Source: a virus. From it: a DNA stretch of 31,464 bases. Both the position numbers and the translations under genes were made by a program. Numbering within the stretch: position 1 is the stretch's first letter; each line of letters opens with the position of its first letter. The notes beneath the pieces are model-generated. The model saw only the letters and a program-made list of their open reading frames with translations, was not told where the DNA came from and did no database searches. Positions 14,601 through 27,549 of the stretch are shown one piece after another. The stretch is from the IMG/VR virus record IMGVR_UViG_3300044712_000259, positions 1 to 31,464 of that record, one strand, 5' to 3'.

Positions 14601-15242
14601 TTAGCTATTAGATATTCTTACTCGCTGCGTCATAGCCTTTTCTATGGGCCACTTATGGGTATGTATTCTCTTGTAAAGAACATCTCTCGGGATACCTTGC
14701 AGTGCCGCCCATTGACTTACGGTTCTAGTTGCGCCTCGCCATTCTATCACCATGTTGTTGCTTTTATTGTTGGCTTGCTCACGATTGTTGGCCCACCTGC
14801 AATTTGACTTCTCGTAATTACCGTTACTGTCTATCCGTTCGATAGTGCATCCCCTGGGCCTTGGCCCCATGTCGCTGAAAAACACTTCAAAAGAATCCCA
14901 CGCAGGGTCAATGGTGATGCCCCTGCCTCCATAATTGTTGTAGTTAATGCAATTCTTGTTGAGCGTCCGGTATCTCATTTTGGCCCACGTTTTATATGCT
15001 CCCGTAAAACTTCCATCAGATGCTTGTCCGTGCTTACGGTTCAACGTGCGGCCCATTTCTACCTTTAGACACCCGCACGATTTACATCCTCCATTGCGCA
15101 ATTCTGCACCATAGACCCGGTGCAAGTTACCGCAGGAGCATTCACAAAACCAATAAACTTTTTTCGGTGTAGAGTCGGGGTCTTTTCTAATAACGGTGAG
15201 TTTACCAAATATCTTTCCAGTCAAATCAATGAGTGGCGGCAT
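14601..15242 (-). CDS. free-standing HNH homing endonuclease
   Basis: A 213-aa protein. Residues 30-65 hold a four-Cys zinc ribbon (CECSCGNLHRVYG...CKSCGC). The region about 85-165 carries TWAKMRYRTLNKNCINYNNYG, then GRGITIDPAW, MGPRPRGCTIERIDSNGNYE and NCRWANNREQANN, the signature of the phage HNH family often found in introns or between genes. The C-terminus (SQWAALQGIPRDVLYKRIH) looks like a DNA-binding helix-turn-helix. AAAGGAG precedes the ATG. It interrupts the head operon between the Mu F-like gene and the scaffold and is probably a selfish gene. Confidence 0.92.
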   Translation of the reverse strand: MPPLIDLTGKIFGKLTVIRKDPDSTPKKVYWFCECSCGNLHRVYGAELRNGGCKSCGCLKVEMGRTLNRKHGQASDGSFTGAYKTWAKMRYRTLNKNCINYNNYGGRGITIDPAWDSFEVFFSDMGPRPRGCTIERIDSNGNYEKSNCRWANNREQANNKSNNMVIEWRGATRTVSQWAALQGIPRDVLYKRIHTHKWPIEKAMTQRVRISNS

Positions 15243-15350
15243 GACACATCTCCTTTGGATGCCCTTAAGGTGAGATGCAGCAGGGAGTAAGGTTCTCCTT
15301 TTCGCCTGGCCGGGCTAGCTGCAAGGTTTAACTATACCACAAATGCGTGG
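15243..15350 (-). other. possible structured leader of the HNH gene
   Basis: A 108-base gap between the Mu F-like stop and the HNH start. In minus-strand RNA, UGCAGC (15323-15318) can pair with GCUGCA (15281-15276). The enclosed segment holds a GGAG/CUCC hairpin (15298-15284) and a GC-rich stem near 15315-15304. The palindrome CCTTAAGG follows just before the Shine-Dalgarno site. Near 15331-15340 lies TATAGTTAAAC, a possible -10 region with no clear -35. Nothing here identifies a known RNA family. Confidence 0.35.
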
Positions 15351-23447: not shown

Positions 23448-23493
23448 GCATAATCACCTTTCTTGCAAAGTTTGGTAAGTGCTTGGTTATCCC
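23448..23493 (-). other. degenerate attC-like site (weak)
   Basis: The gene at 23487-23705 ends GGGATAACC, with its TAA stop inside an ATAAC inverse core (23493-23486), as in the clear attC sites nearby. The far end has GATTATGC (23455-23448) instead of GTTATGC. The inner arms are weak, and the inverse core does not match the GTTATAG core at the start of that gene. It may be an old decayed site or coincidence. Confidence 0.3.
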
Positions 23494-23705
23494 AACAGTT
23501 CTTTTGCACACTTTTTATACGCTTCGGCCATGCCTTCTATCCTGGCGGCGTTAAATGGTGCACATATTTTGAGCTTACGTGCCTTTGCCTTCAACCGTTT
23601 AGACTCTGTCTTCCAACGGTTTGCGGTTTCTTCGCGATCAAAGCATTTATGATTTTCAATTTCCTCAAATGTGCCAATTTTTCCGCAAATAGAACATGCT
23701 GCCAT
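23487..23705 (-). CDS. small zinc-finger protein flanking the cassette array
   Basis: A 72-aa protein MAACSICGKIGTFEEIENHK, then CFDREETANRWKTESKRLKA. C4, C7 and H19, C21 can form a CCHC zinc knuckle, followed by a basic helix. GGAGG precedes the ATG, which lies 33 bases after the GTTATAG core at 23738. That core matches the inverse core left of cassette 1, not this gene's own end. This gene is therefore read as the resident gene downstream of the insertion point rather than an inserted cassette. Confidence 0.75.
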   Translation of the reverse strand: MAACSICGKIGTFEEIENHKCFDREETANRWKTESKRLKAKARKLKICAPFNAARIEGMAEAYKKCAKELLG

Positions 23706-23731
23706 TGTCGATCCTCCGTAGCACCACCGCA

Positions 23732-23791
23732 CTATAACCAGCGGCAGGTGCATATTTCGCTCCGCTCGCGTTTCAACTCAAGCCGTTATTT
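23732..23791 (-). other. attC-like site 6 (end of cassette 5; array right boundary)
   Basis: The inverse core AAAATAAC (23792-23785) includes the TAA stop of the cassette 5 gene. The simple core GTTATAGT starts at 23738. The inverse core is the reverse complement of GTTATTTT at the start of cassette 5. The simple core is instead complementary to ACTATAAC at site 1, as expected if it is the displaced right half of the original target. The inner inverted arms are weak here. Confidence 0.7.
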
Positions 23792-23956
23792 TGATTGCAG
23801 CCTTTCCATATCGGCTGCGATTTCGCGAAGCTGAGAGGGGGTCAAATCCTCCACGTTCATCGCCCAATCCATGTTGCCAAAGCGAATGAAGTATGACCAC
23901 CCGAGAGATTTATGAGCATTGACTTCCCGAAATACCTTCCCGACTACGTTGACCAC
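23786..23956 (-). CDS. cassette 5 gene: 56-aa hypothetical protein
   Basis: A GTG-start gene with GGAGG five bases upstream, encoding VNVVGKVFREVNAHKSLGWS, then YFIRFGNMDWAMNVEDLTPS and QLREIAADMERLQSK. The last part is an amphipathic helix. The stop TAA lies inside the inverse core of attC-like site 6. The GTG lies 30 bases from the GTTATTTT core that begins the cassette. No family is recognised, and one small ORF of unknown function is typical of integron cassettes. Confidence 0.75.
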   Translation of the reverse strand: MVNVVGKVFREVNAHKSLGWSYFIRFGNMDWAMNVEDLTPSQLREIAADMERLQSK

Positions 23957-23979
23957 TGTTGCCTCCGATATCTGACAGA

Positions 23980-24028
23980 AAATAACCAGAACATGCGAGC
24001 GGTGAACCCGCTCAATTTAGTGTTATCC
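23980..24028 (-). other. attC-like site 5 (end of cassette 4)
   Basis: The inverse core is CGGATAAC (24029-24022), carrying the TAA stop of cassette 4, and the simple core is GTTATTTT (23986-23979). The inner arms GAGCGG and CCGCTC pair around a 5-nt loop. The inverse core plus the base before it is complementary to GTTATCCGT at the start of cassette 4 over nine bases. At 49 bp between 7-bp cores, it is the shortest of the six sites. Confidence 0.78.
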
Positions 24029-24265
24029 GTGCGCTTCTGCGAGTATCTTTTGCCCACACTCGACACACGATATTTGTGCAGGATTATCCTTGTTGGCATA
24101 TCCAACTAAGATTCCACATCGTTCGCAATGGATAGCCACGAATTTACAGGGTCCAGTGGGACAATCTTCACGGTATCCTGATGCTTTTTCATGGCAGATT
24201 TCGCACTCAAAATCTATCGGCCACCATCCATGATGTGAATATTTTATTTCCCATTTATGGTCCAT
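24023..24265 (-). CDS. cassette 4 gene: 80-aa zinc-ribbon protein
   Basis: The protein MDHKWEIKYSHHGWWPIDFE, then CEICHEKASGYREDCPTGPC, KFVAIHCERCGILVGYANKD and SCVECGQKILAEAHG has four Cys pairs, suggesting two zinc ribbons. GGAGAG precedes the ATG, which lies 29 bases after the GTTATCC core. The stop TAA is part of attC-like site 5. The family is unrecognised. It might bind nucleic acid or a protein partner. Confidence 0.8.
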   Translation of the reverse strand: MDHKWEIKYSHHGWWPIDFECEICHEKASGYREDCPTGPCKFVAIHCERCGILVGYANKDNPAQISCVECGQKILAEAHG

Positions 24266-24287
24266 CGTCTCTCCGATCTACGATAAC

Positions 24288-24346
24288 GGATAACAAGCCA
24301 ATTGACCGCCCGAAAAACTAGGCGGTCATCGGCCGCCCCGTTATGT
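24288..24346 (-). other. attC-like site 4 (end of cassette 3)
   Basis: The inverse core is GCACATAAC (24348-24340), with the TAA stop of cassette 3, and the simple core is GTTATCC (24294-24288). The arms GCCGATGACCGCC and GGCGGTCAATTGGC pair with one unpaired base and an A/A mismatch around a loop, the imperfect-arm layout of attC sites. The core is directly repeated as GTTATCCGTTATCG. The inverse core is complementary to the start of cassette 3 over nine bases. Confidence 0.82.
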
Positions 24347-24895
24347 GCTCTTTGTTGCCTCGTGCTCTTTGAGGCACTCTTTGTAATAAGCGTCCAGCGC
24401 CTTGATGGTGACTTTCTTCCAGTTCGGAAACGTCCGAGGGTTCTGGTAATCGCTGAACTGGAACCGAATGCGAACGTTCAGCAGTACCGACCGGTCAGCA
24501 TTAAATACCGGCTGGCATGGCAGCACGATATATGCACCGTTCTTTCGACATACCTTGTTCCAGCGGTCATTAAATGCAAACTGGTCATCATCCCATTGCC
24601 ATGATGGACGGCTTGCCACCCGCTCACGACTGTAGACGTTCAGGCCGACATTCTCCCACCAACAAAGCTCACCATCATCGACACTTTCCAGCAGATATTT
24701 CGGCCATCCGTTGTTCGGGTCGTATTCCCGCAACCATGACAAATACCACTTGGACGGCGGCGCAGAAGTCAGCGAAACGAGGTCGCCCACTTGCGGGTTA
24801 TCGCAACCGCAGTTGTAACCCCAATCCTTATTGTTGATCGTCGGAAATGACATCAACTCGCTCAGGATAAGTAATCGTGCTCTGTTTTTCGACAT
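24341..24895 (-). CDS. cassette 3 gene: 184-aa hypothetical protein
   Basis: A Trp- and Asn-rich protein (WGYNCGCDNPQVGDLVSLTS, then APPSKWYLSWLREYDPNNGW and PKYLLESVDDGELCWWENVG) with no recognised family, signal peptide or membrane helix. GGAGGAGAGC precedes the ATG, and a longer start is not needed. The ATG lies 27 bases after the GTTATGTGC core; the TAA stop is in attC-like site 4. It reads like one soluble beta-rich domain. The function is unknown. Confidence 0.82.
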   Translation of the reverse strand: MSKNRARLLILSELMSFPTINNKDWGYNCGCDNPQVGDLVSLTSAPPSKWYLSWLREYDPNNGWPKYLLESVDDGELCWWENVGLNVYSRERVASRPSWQWDDDQFAFNDRWNKVCRKNGAYIVLPCQPVFNADRSVLLNVRIRFQFSDYQNPRTFPNWKKVTIKALDAYYKECLKEHEATKST

Positions 24896-24915
24896 GCTCT
24901 CCTCCTTGAATCCGC

Positions 24916-24976
24916 ACATAACCCGACGCGGCACACCGACCCGATGAAGCCGGGCGGGTGCGCTTTGTCGTTATTT
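24916..24976 (-). other. attC-like site 3 (end of cassette 2)
   Basis: The inverse core is GCAAAATAAC (24979-24970), with the TAA stop of cassette 2, and the simple core is GTTATGT (24922-24916). The arms GCGCACC and GGTGTGC pair outside CCCG/CGGG around a CTTCAT-centred loop, giving an imperfect 61-bp inverted repeat. The inverse core is complementary to GTTATTTTGC at the start of cassette 2 over ten bases. Confidence 0.83.
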
Positions 24977-25192
24977 TGCTTTCAGTAGTTTTGCGAAGGA
25001 ACGCATTCGCACTTGATGATGTTTGCGCTTCGAGGCAAAAACTTTCGCCCTATCCATCCACTGTTCCGGGGTGTACGTAGTCGCTTTCGGATCGCGGGAC
25101 AGATTTACGTTTGTCCACTCGCAATCCCGGTAATATCTCGCCCAATGGCGATGATGGTCGCGGAGTACCACCATTTCCTCTGTGTCCAGCAT
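24971..25192 (-). CDS. cassette 2 gene: 73-aa basic protein
   Basis: A short, strongly basic helical protein, MLDTEEMVVLRDHHRHWARY, then YRDCEWTNVNLSRDPKATTY, PEQWMDRAKVFASKRKHHQV and MRSFAKLLKAK. The basic C-terminus could bind nucleic acid. GGAGGGG lies just before the ATG, 31 bases after the GTTATTTTGC core. The TAA stop lies in attC-like site 3. No family is recognised. Confidence 0.78.
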   Translation of the reverse strand: MLDTEEMVVLRDHHRHWARYYRDCEWTNVNLSRDPKATTYTPEQWMDRAKVFASKRKHHQVRMRSFAKLLKAK

Positions 25193-25216
25193 CGCTCCCC
25201 TCCGATCACCAGCGCA

Positions 25217-25278
25217 AAATAACAAAACGCTGGACTGTGACTACGCTGACGCTTGCACGTCAGCTTTGGCCGTTATCT
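25217..25278 (-). other. attC-like site 2 (end of cassette 1)
   Basis: The inverse core is GACAGATAAC (25281-25272), with the TAA stop of cassette 1, and the simple core is GTTATTT (25223-25217). The inner stem GCTGACG/CGTCAGC has a 6-nt loop. The remaining arm on the right is longer than on the left, so the outer pairing is imperfect. The inverse core is complementary to GTTATCTGTC at the start of cassette 1 over ten bases. Confidence 0.82.
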
Positions 25279-25893
25279 GTCTACCCCGGCTGTTTCCGCA
25301 GTCCGCAACAGAATGTCACGGAATGCCGCCGGAGTTGCGTTTCTAATCCTGGTCTTATCTTTGCCGCCGACCATTGCCATCATGCCGATGCGCCTGGCTT
25401 TTTCGTAGCCGTACCGCTCCAGGGCTACCGGGTGAATCCGTTGACCGGACGTTCCCCATACCAGCAATGGGAGCGCCACACCGCAGGCATACAGCCAGGT
25501 TGCCTTTCTGCTCATGTGGCCGTAATGCCCCTGTTCGACATGGCAGGTATACCCGCCAAAATCATCGGCCTTCACCCATCCGCCAGCCTTCGGAGGCGTA
25601 GCCAGCCCAAAAAAGCGCCAAGCGTGAGAGTGTGCAGGATGCTCAAGGACGCCACCGTAATTCCGCACCGCCGTCAATGCAGCGGCGAAACAGCCGCCGT
25701 CCTCGCCAAGTCGGTATTGCCCTGGCTTGTTCGGTGCTCCGTGCCAGTACCGGCCCCATCGCTGACATGGTGGATGGGCTACTACCGGAGACGGTCCCCG
25801 ATATCTCCGAGCGTCCCTTACTTCATCCCAGGGATCAACACCGGGTATGCCGAAATAAGCGCCGTCAGTTTCTACGAAAAGAGCTGCTACCAC
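25273..25893 (-). CDS. cassette 1 gene: PPCQRWG-family protein, possibly DNA modification related
   Basis: A 206-aa GTG-start protein (AGGAGG six bases upstream). It contains GVDPWDEVRDARRYRGPSPV, then VAHPPCQRWGRYWHGAPNKP, GGVLEHPAHSHAWRFFGLAT, HYGHMSRKATWLYACGVALP and TPAAFRDILLRTAE. Proteins with the PPCQRWG motif occur in many phages. The Pro-Pro-Cys resembles the catalytic PC of C5-cytosine methyltransferases, but SAM-binding motifs are not clear and the activity is unproven. The stop TAA lies inside attC-like site 2, and the GTG is 25 bases after the core. Confidence 0.78.
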   Translation of the reverse strand: MVAALFVETDGAYFGIPGVDPWDEVRDARRYRGPSPVVAHPPCQRWGRYWHGAPNKPGQYRLGEDGGCFAAALTAVRNYGGVLEHPAHSHAWRFFGLATPPKAGGWVKADDFGGYTCHVEQGHYGHMSRKATWLYACGVALPLLVWGTSGQRIHPVALERYGYEKARRIGMMAMVGGKDKTRIRNATPAAFRDILLRTAETAGVDR

Positions 25894-25911
25894 CTGAATC
25901 CTCCTTACGAC

Positions 25912-25961
25912 AGATAACAAAACACAGCAGCGGTCAAGCCGCTGTGTTCAGGCCGTTATAG
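25912..25961 (-). other. attC-like site 1 (array left boundary)
   Basis: The inverse core is ACTATAAC (25962-25955) and the simple core GTTATCTGTC begins cassette 1 (25918-25909). The arms AACACAGCGG and CCGCTGCTGTGTT pair with a 3-nt bulge around CTTGA. Unlike at the other sites, the upstream gene stops (TGA) before the inverse core. This inverse core matches GTTATAGT at the array's far end (site 6), not the start of any cassette. The half-sites therefore look like one original target split by the insertions. Confidence 0.8.
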
Positions 25962-25990
25962 TCCTTGTATCACCCGTTCAATGGAAGCAT

Positions 25991-26590
25991 TCAACTCATC
26001 AACATAGGCATCAAAAGCCCTTCGCCGCCGTCAAATTTTATCCTAAAAAATGAATTCTTATCATGAGGCGCAATCTGTATATTTGGTAAATCCTGGATCA
26101 TATCAAGGTAAATGGCATTTATCTTTACTTCGCCGACAGCGCCGTTCATCACCGGGCCGGAACTAATTTTTACCCTCCCGGACCCGTTGCAATCTCCGCA
26201 AATCTCCGCTCCTTTATCATTGATGGTGCATCCTATAGCGCAATCATCATTATACCTCTGACATTTCTTCCACTCCCCTTTGCCGCATTTAATATCTGGA
26301 TTACGCCATGCGTTACAGTGCGTCACATATCCCTTGCCACCGCACCAATCGCATGCTTTAATTTCAAGGGTATATTCGGGTAGCGGCTGCCAAACCGTAA
26401 TTTCACGTGATTTGGCTTCATCAAACATCCGCTCTGCATTTTTTGGACCCCTGTCTTCATCGTACCCGTCCACACGCGGCACCCGTATAATGATTCGTCC
26501 GTCCGTGGCATACGTCCATTCCCCGCGAGAAAATGGCCTATTGATGCCGCGCATCTCCGCATCTGGATTACAAAATCGTAATAAGTCCAT
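25991..26590 (-). CDS. phage protein with central CxxCxGxG zinc module
   Basis: A 199-aa protein beginning MDLLRFCNPDAEMRGINRPF, then SRGEWTYATDGRIIIRVPRV. This pattern recurs in phage early proteins of unknown function. The centre has CDWCGGKGYVTHCN and later CGDCNGSGRVK, a DnaJ-like zinc module (about residues 80-145). GGAGGAGG precedes the ATG. It lies between the RecT-like gene and the cassette array. No GTTAT core lies ahead of it, so it is not itself a cassette. Confidence 0.75.
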   Translation of the reverse strand: MDLLRFCNPDAEMRGINRPFSRGEWTYATDGRIIIRVPRVDGYDEDRGPKNAERMFDEAKSREITVWQPLPEYTLEIKACDWCGGKGYVTHCNAWRNPDIKCGKGEWKKCQRYNDDCAIGCTINDKGAEICGDCNGSGRVKISSGPVMNGAVGEVKINAIYLDMIQDLPNIQIAPHDKNSFFRIKFDGGEGLLMPMLMS

Positions 26591-26631: not shown

Positions 26632-27549
26632 TCACATCTCTTTTTCGCATTCAGGTGGCACCGCGTTCGGGCACGAAATCGCATGTCCATCAACTTCTCC
26701 GCACTCCGGACAGGGATCAACAGCAGTCCCCGGCGGGTCCGGCCAGCCGTCGTCTTCGGTGTCCATGTTGGGAAGGCCGTTTTGAGCTCCGGCTTTCTCG
26801 TCAGGCGTCATGGGTATTTCGCCGGTGGTGGGGTCGGCGGTTTGGGCGTCAGCGAAGCGGGAGACAATACTTTCGGCTGTAGTGGCAGGTTCCTGTTCAG
26901 GGCTAATGTCGATAATGTCCCGCATCTCATCGTCAGTCCTCATGCCCATAAGCACCTCGGAGGCATAGAGTCTGCCGAAAAACGTGGCGGCACGATAACG
27001 CAGCATGAGGTCAGGCATGGTCTGCCATTTTGAGCCGTTTTTACTGAGCCATCCTTCTTTGACAGCCATTTCCAGCGACACAGGAGGAGATTCAAGCCGA
27101 TCGCCGGTAGCCTTCTCAATTGCCCACGCGACGCAAACGCGGTTCCTAATCTTCTCCTTGCCAGTCTTGGTCTGCTTGTTGCCCTTCACGTATTCGATAA
27201 ATTCATAGGCGACTTCCCGCTCTGGTTCCGGTTCAGAAATATCGAACCGCAGCGGGGAGAATCGTCCGGTTGTGTTCAGGGCTCCGATAATAAAGGTGGA
27301 ACTCCACGAGGGCTTGCCATGCACAATATAAAGGTTCTGTAGAACCGCCAGAGGGGACGCCCCGATCCTACTTGCCATCTCCAGAGCTATGACGCAGTTG
27401 GGGAAATTGCCCTTGTATTCCTTTGGAACTAGGTCGGACGCGGCCAACAGTTTGGCTTGTCGCTGTAGGAGCTCAAAGGCTTCCACACTCCCGAATCCAG
27501 GAGCCATCGGAAGCCTGCTTTCTATAGTTGTTGGCAAATATTCTCTCAT
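26632..27549 (-). CDS. recT: RecT-like single-strand annealing protein
   Basis: A 305-aa protein. The block FPNCVIALEMASRIGASPLA, then VLQNLYIVHGKPSWSSTFII, and later YRAATFFGRLYASEVLMGM, is the RecT/Redbeta-like annealing pattern (about residues 48-210). The C-terminal tail adds a CPECGEVDGHAISC zinc pair not found in all RecT proteins. It follows the PDDEXK exonuclease gene, the standard order of phage recombination pairs. RecT anneals single-stranded DNA during recombination-dependent replication. Confidence 0.88.
   Translation of the reverse strand: MREYLPTTIESRLPMAPGFGSVEAFELLQRQAKLLAASDLVPKEYKGNFPNCVIALEMASRIGASPLAVLQNLYIVHGKPSWSSTFIIGALNTTGRFSPLRFDISEPEPEREVAYEFIEYVKGNKQTKTGKEKIRNRVCVAWAIEKATGDRLESPPVSLEMAVKEGWLSKNGSKWQTMPDLMLRYRAATFFGRLYASEVLMGMRTDDEMRDIIDISPEQEPATTAESIVSRFADAQTADPTTGEIPMTPDEKAGAQNGLPNMDTEDDGWPDPPGTAVDPCPECGEVDGHAISCPNAVPPECEKEM

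Follow-up and report, generated by a model that had tools for sequence, protein, structure and literature searches.

An integrase-less cassette array in a phage early operon, read as part of a phage integron lineage with inverted attC sites

What are the hairpins that separate a row of small genes in a phage early operon, and to which gene does each of them belong? The IMG/VR virus record IMGVR_UViG_3300044712_000259 (31,464 nucleotides, analysed as a whole and called the window here) carries, between a CxxC-rich gene and a small open reading frame (ORF), five ORFs that share one sense on the minus strand. They are separated by six ATAAC-hairpin-GTTAT sites. A first-pass annotation, made from the sequence alone, had read this locus as five integron-like gene cassettes, each ending in a hairpin, in a phage that lacks an integron integrase. 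We estimate a probability of about 85% that the window holds an integrase-less array (a cluster of attC sites lacking an integron integrase, CALIN) of a phage integron lineage in which the attC recombination sites are inverted relative to the genes. The whole array spans 23736-25957, and its five cassettes are bounded by six attC sites, w1 (innermost) to w6 (outermost). All the elements of the five units described in that annotation were present on the minus strand at the same positions: the TAA stop of each ORF lies inside ATAAC, and the start codons lie 25-31 nt past the core. The proposal that the sites are integron-type attC sites stood, whereas their number was corrected from five to six, because w6 is an attC site too, and the hairpin was found at the start of each unit, 5' of the ORF, not at its end. 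No integron integrase was found in the window record, as the annotation had stated. With six attC sites and no integrase the window falls within the definition of a CALIN (at least two attC sites without an integron integrase); it has neither intI nor attI, the two components of a complete integron, both of which are present in 22 related loci.

In cassettes 1-5 the two ends of the unit are complementary over 10, 10, 9, 9, and 8 bases, exactly the values given before. The observed pairing of starts and ends was the best of the 120 possible for the five units of the window, and across 16 cassettes from seven arrays the matched ends averaged 9.1 bases versus 5.2 for mismatched ends, with none of 100,000 permutations reaching the matched mean. 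The earlier assertion that the matching is cassette-specific was thus upheld. None of 30 dinucleotide shuffles of the window gave a cassette chain. When 175 control loci (4 Mb, both strands) were scanned with a later version of the scanner, at least two linked cassettes were detected in only two, one of which (L136) is a real 10-cassette array of another attC type. The scanner matches R boxes within a cassette, not within a site, and the attC calls are based on this scanner and on the arm profile described below. The inverse and simple core boxes are complementary within one cassette, as expected of attC, and the loop lengths vary strongly between sites. The hairpins lie just upstream of ribosome-binding sites, a position that would also suit terminators or translation-control elements between early genes, but the cassette-specific end complementarity argues against elements of this kind.

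Copies of cassette 1 were found in the arrays of L114, L115, and L116, on three viral contigs, where they are 83-88% identical and have different neighbours. In the four copies the identity extends from the AA/C junction before the hairpin to the TAA stop, and the 100 bases on each side are at the random level. The next hairpin downstream of cassette 1 is unrelated among the four copies, and the upstream hairpin accompanies the ORF. These boundaries indicate that the order of a cassette in gene sense is hairpin then gene, with the stop codon last. Cassette 1 has thus the properties of a gene cassette, a mobile unit in varied contexts with boundaries at the core, in four arrays. The TAA stop is the last codon of each cassette, and each hairpin belongs to the gene downstream. 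That the homology of cassette 1 stops exactly at the core on both sides, and that an integrase and an attI-like element are linked to the arrays of relatives, also count against terminators or translation-control elements; this explanation was rejected on the basis of the end complementarity and the cassette 1 boundaries, and we give it virtually no weight. The first-pass annotation had asked whether relatives always carry the same five genes. They do not, since the relatives examined (L001, L002, L114, L115, L116) vary in both the number and the kind of cassettes.

The polarity of the sites was examined with an arm profile built from 17 known attC sites of Vibrio phage MK672802, Shewanella phage M16-3, and the class 1 integron in P1 MH445380. 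The profile called the polarity correctly at 17 of 17 known sites when each group was left out in turn. At 24 of the 25 phage sites, including all six of the window, the polarity was called opposite to that of the ORF. The extra stem bases lie in the 5' (L'') arm by 13:2 in the known attC sites and by 21:2 in the 25 phage sites when these are read opposite to the ORF, so that these sites show the imperfect L''/L' stem typical of attC, in which the additional bases are in the L'' arm; within the window w6, w5, and w3 agree, w4 and w2 tie, and w1 is off by one base. At each of the six sites of the window the predicted bottom strand gave the better fold, but the margin was often small (at w6, -11.6 kcal/mol for the bottom and -8.4 kcal/mol for the top strand, z -4.5). 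The canonical arrangement, with attC 3' of the gene and of the same polarity, was therefore not found, and the canonical polarity assumed in the first-pass annotation had to be given up: the sites are opposite to the genes.

The attC type of the window matches that of Geobacterales integrons, a Geobacterales genome encodes a portal protein 56% identical to that of the window, and the host is likely to be a member of Geobacterales or a relative. The attC sites of Geobacterales chromosomal integrons are very similar, and canonical-polarity phage CALINs do exist, such as that of TJE1 (PMC9892861); both speak for the reading first supposed, an ordinary CALIN taken up from a chromosomal integron of the host, with attC polarity equal to gene polarity. 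It is made very unlikely by the two polarity tests (24/25 and 21:2), by the hairpin that accompanies the downstream gene in the relatives of cassette 1, and by the direction of the genes relative to intI. In 43 of 45 cassettes (those of the intI loci, the window, and L116) the longest ORF is directed at intI or at the place where intI would be, whereas in four canonical control arrays 6 of 30 cassettes point toward intI and 24 of 30 away from it (Fisher p 6e-12). These controls include two chromosomal integrons of the same order (L225, L270) with very similar attC sites.

In L114 and L115 the array is followed immediately, on its 3' side, by a gene for an integron integrase that has the same direction. 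Both proteins exceed the TIGR02249 cut-off of 265 bits (309 and 301 bits) and have the catalytic residues of integron integrases, and their best solved relative is Vibrio IntIA (VchIntIA, 2a3v). Scans of sequence collections, restricted to the catalytic core, placed about 20 viral contigs and members in several Geobacterales genomes in the same clade. The catalytic motifs were found in 19 of 22 integrases by motif search and in the other three by reading the translations. A conserved attI-like element, ATAACAT...TTA....GCCA..ATGGC....TAA, is located just before intI at 22 of 22 loci, which is the position expected of attI, and from this element the cassettes chain by end complementarity of 6-12 bases. 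In a tree with same-order chromosomal IntI and three references (the L270 integrase was left out), the 24 phage-type integrases were split off by a branch supported at 100/99. This indicates that they are separate from the chromosomal integrases sampled and says nothing of origin, because the phage-type integrases had been found by mutual similarity. Since related phages carry a dedicated intI and an attI-like element, the window is most likely an integrase-less member of this lineage and not a stray cargo array.

Two further integrase loci were observed. L116:1913-2104 encodes a C-terminal remnant of an integron-integrase-like recombinase near its integrase-less array, which possibly reflects integrase loss. 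L271 (G077:C32) is a deeper relative of IntI; the genes of its array perhaps also point toward intI, and it may be an intermediate.

Terminase, portal (of several families), or Mu-type transposition genes were present on the contigs of L195, L240, L251, L253, L226, and L208, and intI is often placed between the early and the packaging genes. A separate serine-type integrase is also encoded on the L195 contig, so that IntI need not be the lysogeny integrase. In the window a recT gene is found close to the array, and in L002 one immediately precedes it, which might suggest that cassettes are exchanged without any integrase by RecT-mediated annealing at short hairpins. Such annealing would leave the cassette-specific core matching and the attI/IntI linkage unexplained, and the arrays also occur in other phage kinds, one of them Mu-like; we regard it as highly improbable.

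It is also conceivable that the anatomy is as described here and that the cassettes are moved by a host chromosomal integron integrase instead of the phage IntI. A strong IntI was found in 56 of 138 same-order genomes, the attC sites of host and phage resemble each other, and the window itself lacks IntI. Among the host loci with long IntI-like recombinases, L224 had no array in the scan, L227 was partial, and L225 had the canonical array used as a control. The same cassette occurs, however, in arrays with the phage IntI and the attI-like element, and the host cassette pools have the opposite gene polarity, which renders movement by the host enzyme rather unlikely.

The assignment of the window to a phage integron lineage thus stands on the cassette boundaries, the polarity, the occurrence of cassette 1 in four contexts, and the linkage to a distinct IntI clade with an attI-like element in several phage kinds. 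Several observations weigh against it. The window lacks an integrase, and its best match to the attI element covers 17 of 26 positions, which is the background level. The stem of w1, which lies where complete relatives would have attI and intI, is poor and no better folded than shuffles. The carrier loci are mostly metagenome contigs, and the phage-type IntI sequences were picked by similarity, which favours one clade. Cassettes 2-5 had no relatives among the fetched loci, and movement is thus seen for cassette 1 alone. Because intI and attI are absent, the array of the window is either frozen or moved in trans by the IntI of a co-infecting or resident phage or by a host integrase. We infer that it is or was mobilised in trans and that the IntI clade is active on these sites.

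A lineage of this kind would work as follows. Along the gene, a cassette consists of C, the attC hairpin, the core GTTATNNN, a ribosome-binding site, the ORF, and NNNATAA; the attC looks like one of the normal single-strand-folding type and is inverted relative to the gene. In complete relatives the cassettes lie between phage early genes and attI/intI, and transcription of intI, which leads away from attI, has the same direction as that of the cassettes. IntI would insert a cassette at attI in the sole orientation that attC permits, and since the genes are inverted relative to attC they would be co-directional with the early operon. In chromosomal integrons, insertion puts a gene in line with the integron promoter Pc, reading away from intI. 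Phage transcription would run from the upstream early genes toward intI, and only cassettes with inverted genes would be useful there; the arrays are made up of such cassettes. New genes would enter beside intI and form the transcribed tail of the early operon, expressed probably from upstream phage promoters and not from Pc.

The features of the array and its surroundings are listed in Table 1, where attC positions run from AAC to GTT as read on the plus strand. No near-identical phage record was found, and a direct search of viral contigs with the CxxC-rich flanking gene gave no relatives. The small ORF after w1 is possibly a sixth cassette whose far boundary has been lost. The outer flanks of the array (23731-23738 and 25955-25962) match each other in inverted orientation over 8 bases (GTTATAGT); this exceeds the common core by only three bases and could be the mark of one original cassette or due to chance. 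Elsewhere in the window, Rfam matched an int-alpA RNA at 15262-15325 on the minus strand (44 bits; cut-off, 36), and an HNH endonuclease gene (14601-15242) adjoins it.

Table 1. Features of the cassette array and its flanks in the window
Feature	Position	Strand	Remarks
RecT-family single-stranded-DNA-annealing protein	26632..27549	-	early operon upstream of array; PF03837, 27 bits (cut-off, 24)
CxxC-rich flanking gene	25991..26590	-	outside array; sequence, Pfam search
attC w6	25916..25957	+	outermost; belongs to cassette 1; hairpin accompanies cassette 1 in L114, L116
Cassette 1	25273..25955	-	683 bp; AA/C hairpin, core, ribosome-binding site, ORF, TAA end; end complementarity 10
Cassette 1 ORF	25273-25893	-	206 aa; weakly C5-methyltransferase-like
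attC w5	25221..25274	+	array scan, arm profile, end complementarity, folding
Cassette 2	24971..25272	-	302 bp; ORF 24971-25192, 73 aa; end complementarity 10
attC w4	24920..24972	+	array scan, arm profile, end complementarity, folding
Cassette 3	24341..24970	-	630 bp; ORF 24341-24895, 184 aa, function unassigned; end complementarity 9
attC w3	24292..24342	+	array scan, arm profile, end complementarity, folding
Cassette 4	24023..24340	-	318 bp; ORF 24023-24265, 80 aa, Cys-rich; end complementarity 9
attC w2	23984..24024	+	array scan, arm profile, end complementarity, folding
Cassette 5	23786..24022	-	237 bp; ORF 23786-23956, 56 aa, function unassigned; end complementarity 8
attC w1	23736..23787	+	innermost; structurally degenerate; z about 0
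Small Cys-containing ORF	23487..23705	-	directly after w1; core-to-start spacing as in cassettes

The 206-aa protein of cassette 1 has relatives in many phages, mostly without attC flanks, and the closest three (L114, L115, L116) are in arrays. A fold search gave mostly C5-methyltransferases, none at E <0.001, and the likeness is for that reason a hint only. The family shows unusual conservation among widely differing phages, and its relatives extend to microviruses and a small Xanthomonas phage. The cassette 2 protein had no Pfam match and its function is unassigned; for cassette 3 the search of viral contigs gave no relatives, and distant relatives were present in a few phage records; the cassette 4 protein gave zinc-ribbon matches, all below threshold. 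Several cassettes in the arrays encode DNA methyltransferases (PF01555, PF00145), which suggests protection against restriction, and cassette cargo probably often serves counter-defence. The phage array L251:1-7256 has eight cassettes adjoining attI and intI, and includes a tandem cassette duplicate identical at 548 of 548 bases. This duplicate would be a sign of activity, yet ordinary tandem duplication could also explain it. Together with cassette 1 in four contexts and the varied number and kind of cassettes in relatives, it makes up the putative signs of activity.

The array L136:1353-5509, on a 27-kb viral contig, has 10 cassettes with mostly GTTAG cores, and its genes are mostly inverted relative to attC. 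One of its cassettes is a 78% relative of cassette 1, and the record had no TIGR02249 match. Inverted phage arrays may extend beyond one attC type.

CALINs and integrons in phage genomes were described by Qi et al. 2023, who found several attC sites active with IntI1 and complete phage integrons to be pieces of Vibrio, Shewanella, or class 1 integrons (PMC9892861). Those CALINs resemble the window in having attC-bounded cassettes without an integrase and methyltransferase cargo. In contrast to them, the genes here are inverted, and the related phages carry their own IntI clade and an attI-like element. The chromosomal integrons of Geobacterales (L225, L270) share the attC type (TAACCAG...TCAAGCGCT...CGTTA) and the cassette end complementarity, but their genes are mostly directed away from intI (10 of 13 cassettes), unlike those of the phage arrays, and the L225 integrase belongs to another clade than the phage IntI. 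Class 1 and Vibrio integrons have the IntI family, the R and L boxes, the extra stem bases, and the R-box matching in common with the phage arrays. Most of their genes are directed away from intI, and they depend on Pc. They differ from the phage cassettes in having attC 3' of the gene. In the reverse integron of Treponema denticola the cassettes follow intI and the attC polarity is canonical, whereas in the phage lineage the array precedes intI and gene polarity is opposite to that of attC. The Treponema arrangement, with intI 5' of the cassettes and co-directional with them, was thus not found here, where intI lies 3' of the array. What the two share is that intI has the same direction as the cassette genes, as reported for T. 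denticola (PMC4909258). The literature searched, which was incomplete and did not include preprints, yielded no description of a lineage of phage integrases associated with inverted cassettes. Phage CALINs are thus already known (PMC9892861), and the apparent novelty is a phage integrase lineage with inverted cassettes.

Integrons have been regarded as devices of bacteria and, recently, of archaea, and phages as their occasional carriers. We consider it on balance probable that phages of Geobacterales and other hosts own a distinct and long-lived integron lineage, consisting of an IntI clade and attI within the early operon. Its inverted cassettes would form a pool apart, which makes sense only inside phage transcription units. 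The lineage would be a gene-shuffling device largely for counter-defence, divided from host integrons by gene polarity despite attC sites that look compatible. Because attC lies 5' of each gene, the phage cassette pool is possibly misread by canonical integron analyses. If the lineage is real, phages use integrons for themselves, with their own integrase, attI, and inverted cassettes, and a precise mechanism would lie behind the rapid turnover of small early phage genes. It would also allow a simple test of the reason for the fixed polarity of cassettes, namely that genes must face the transcription they join.

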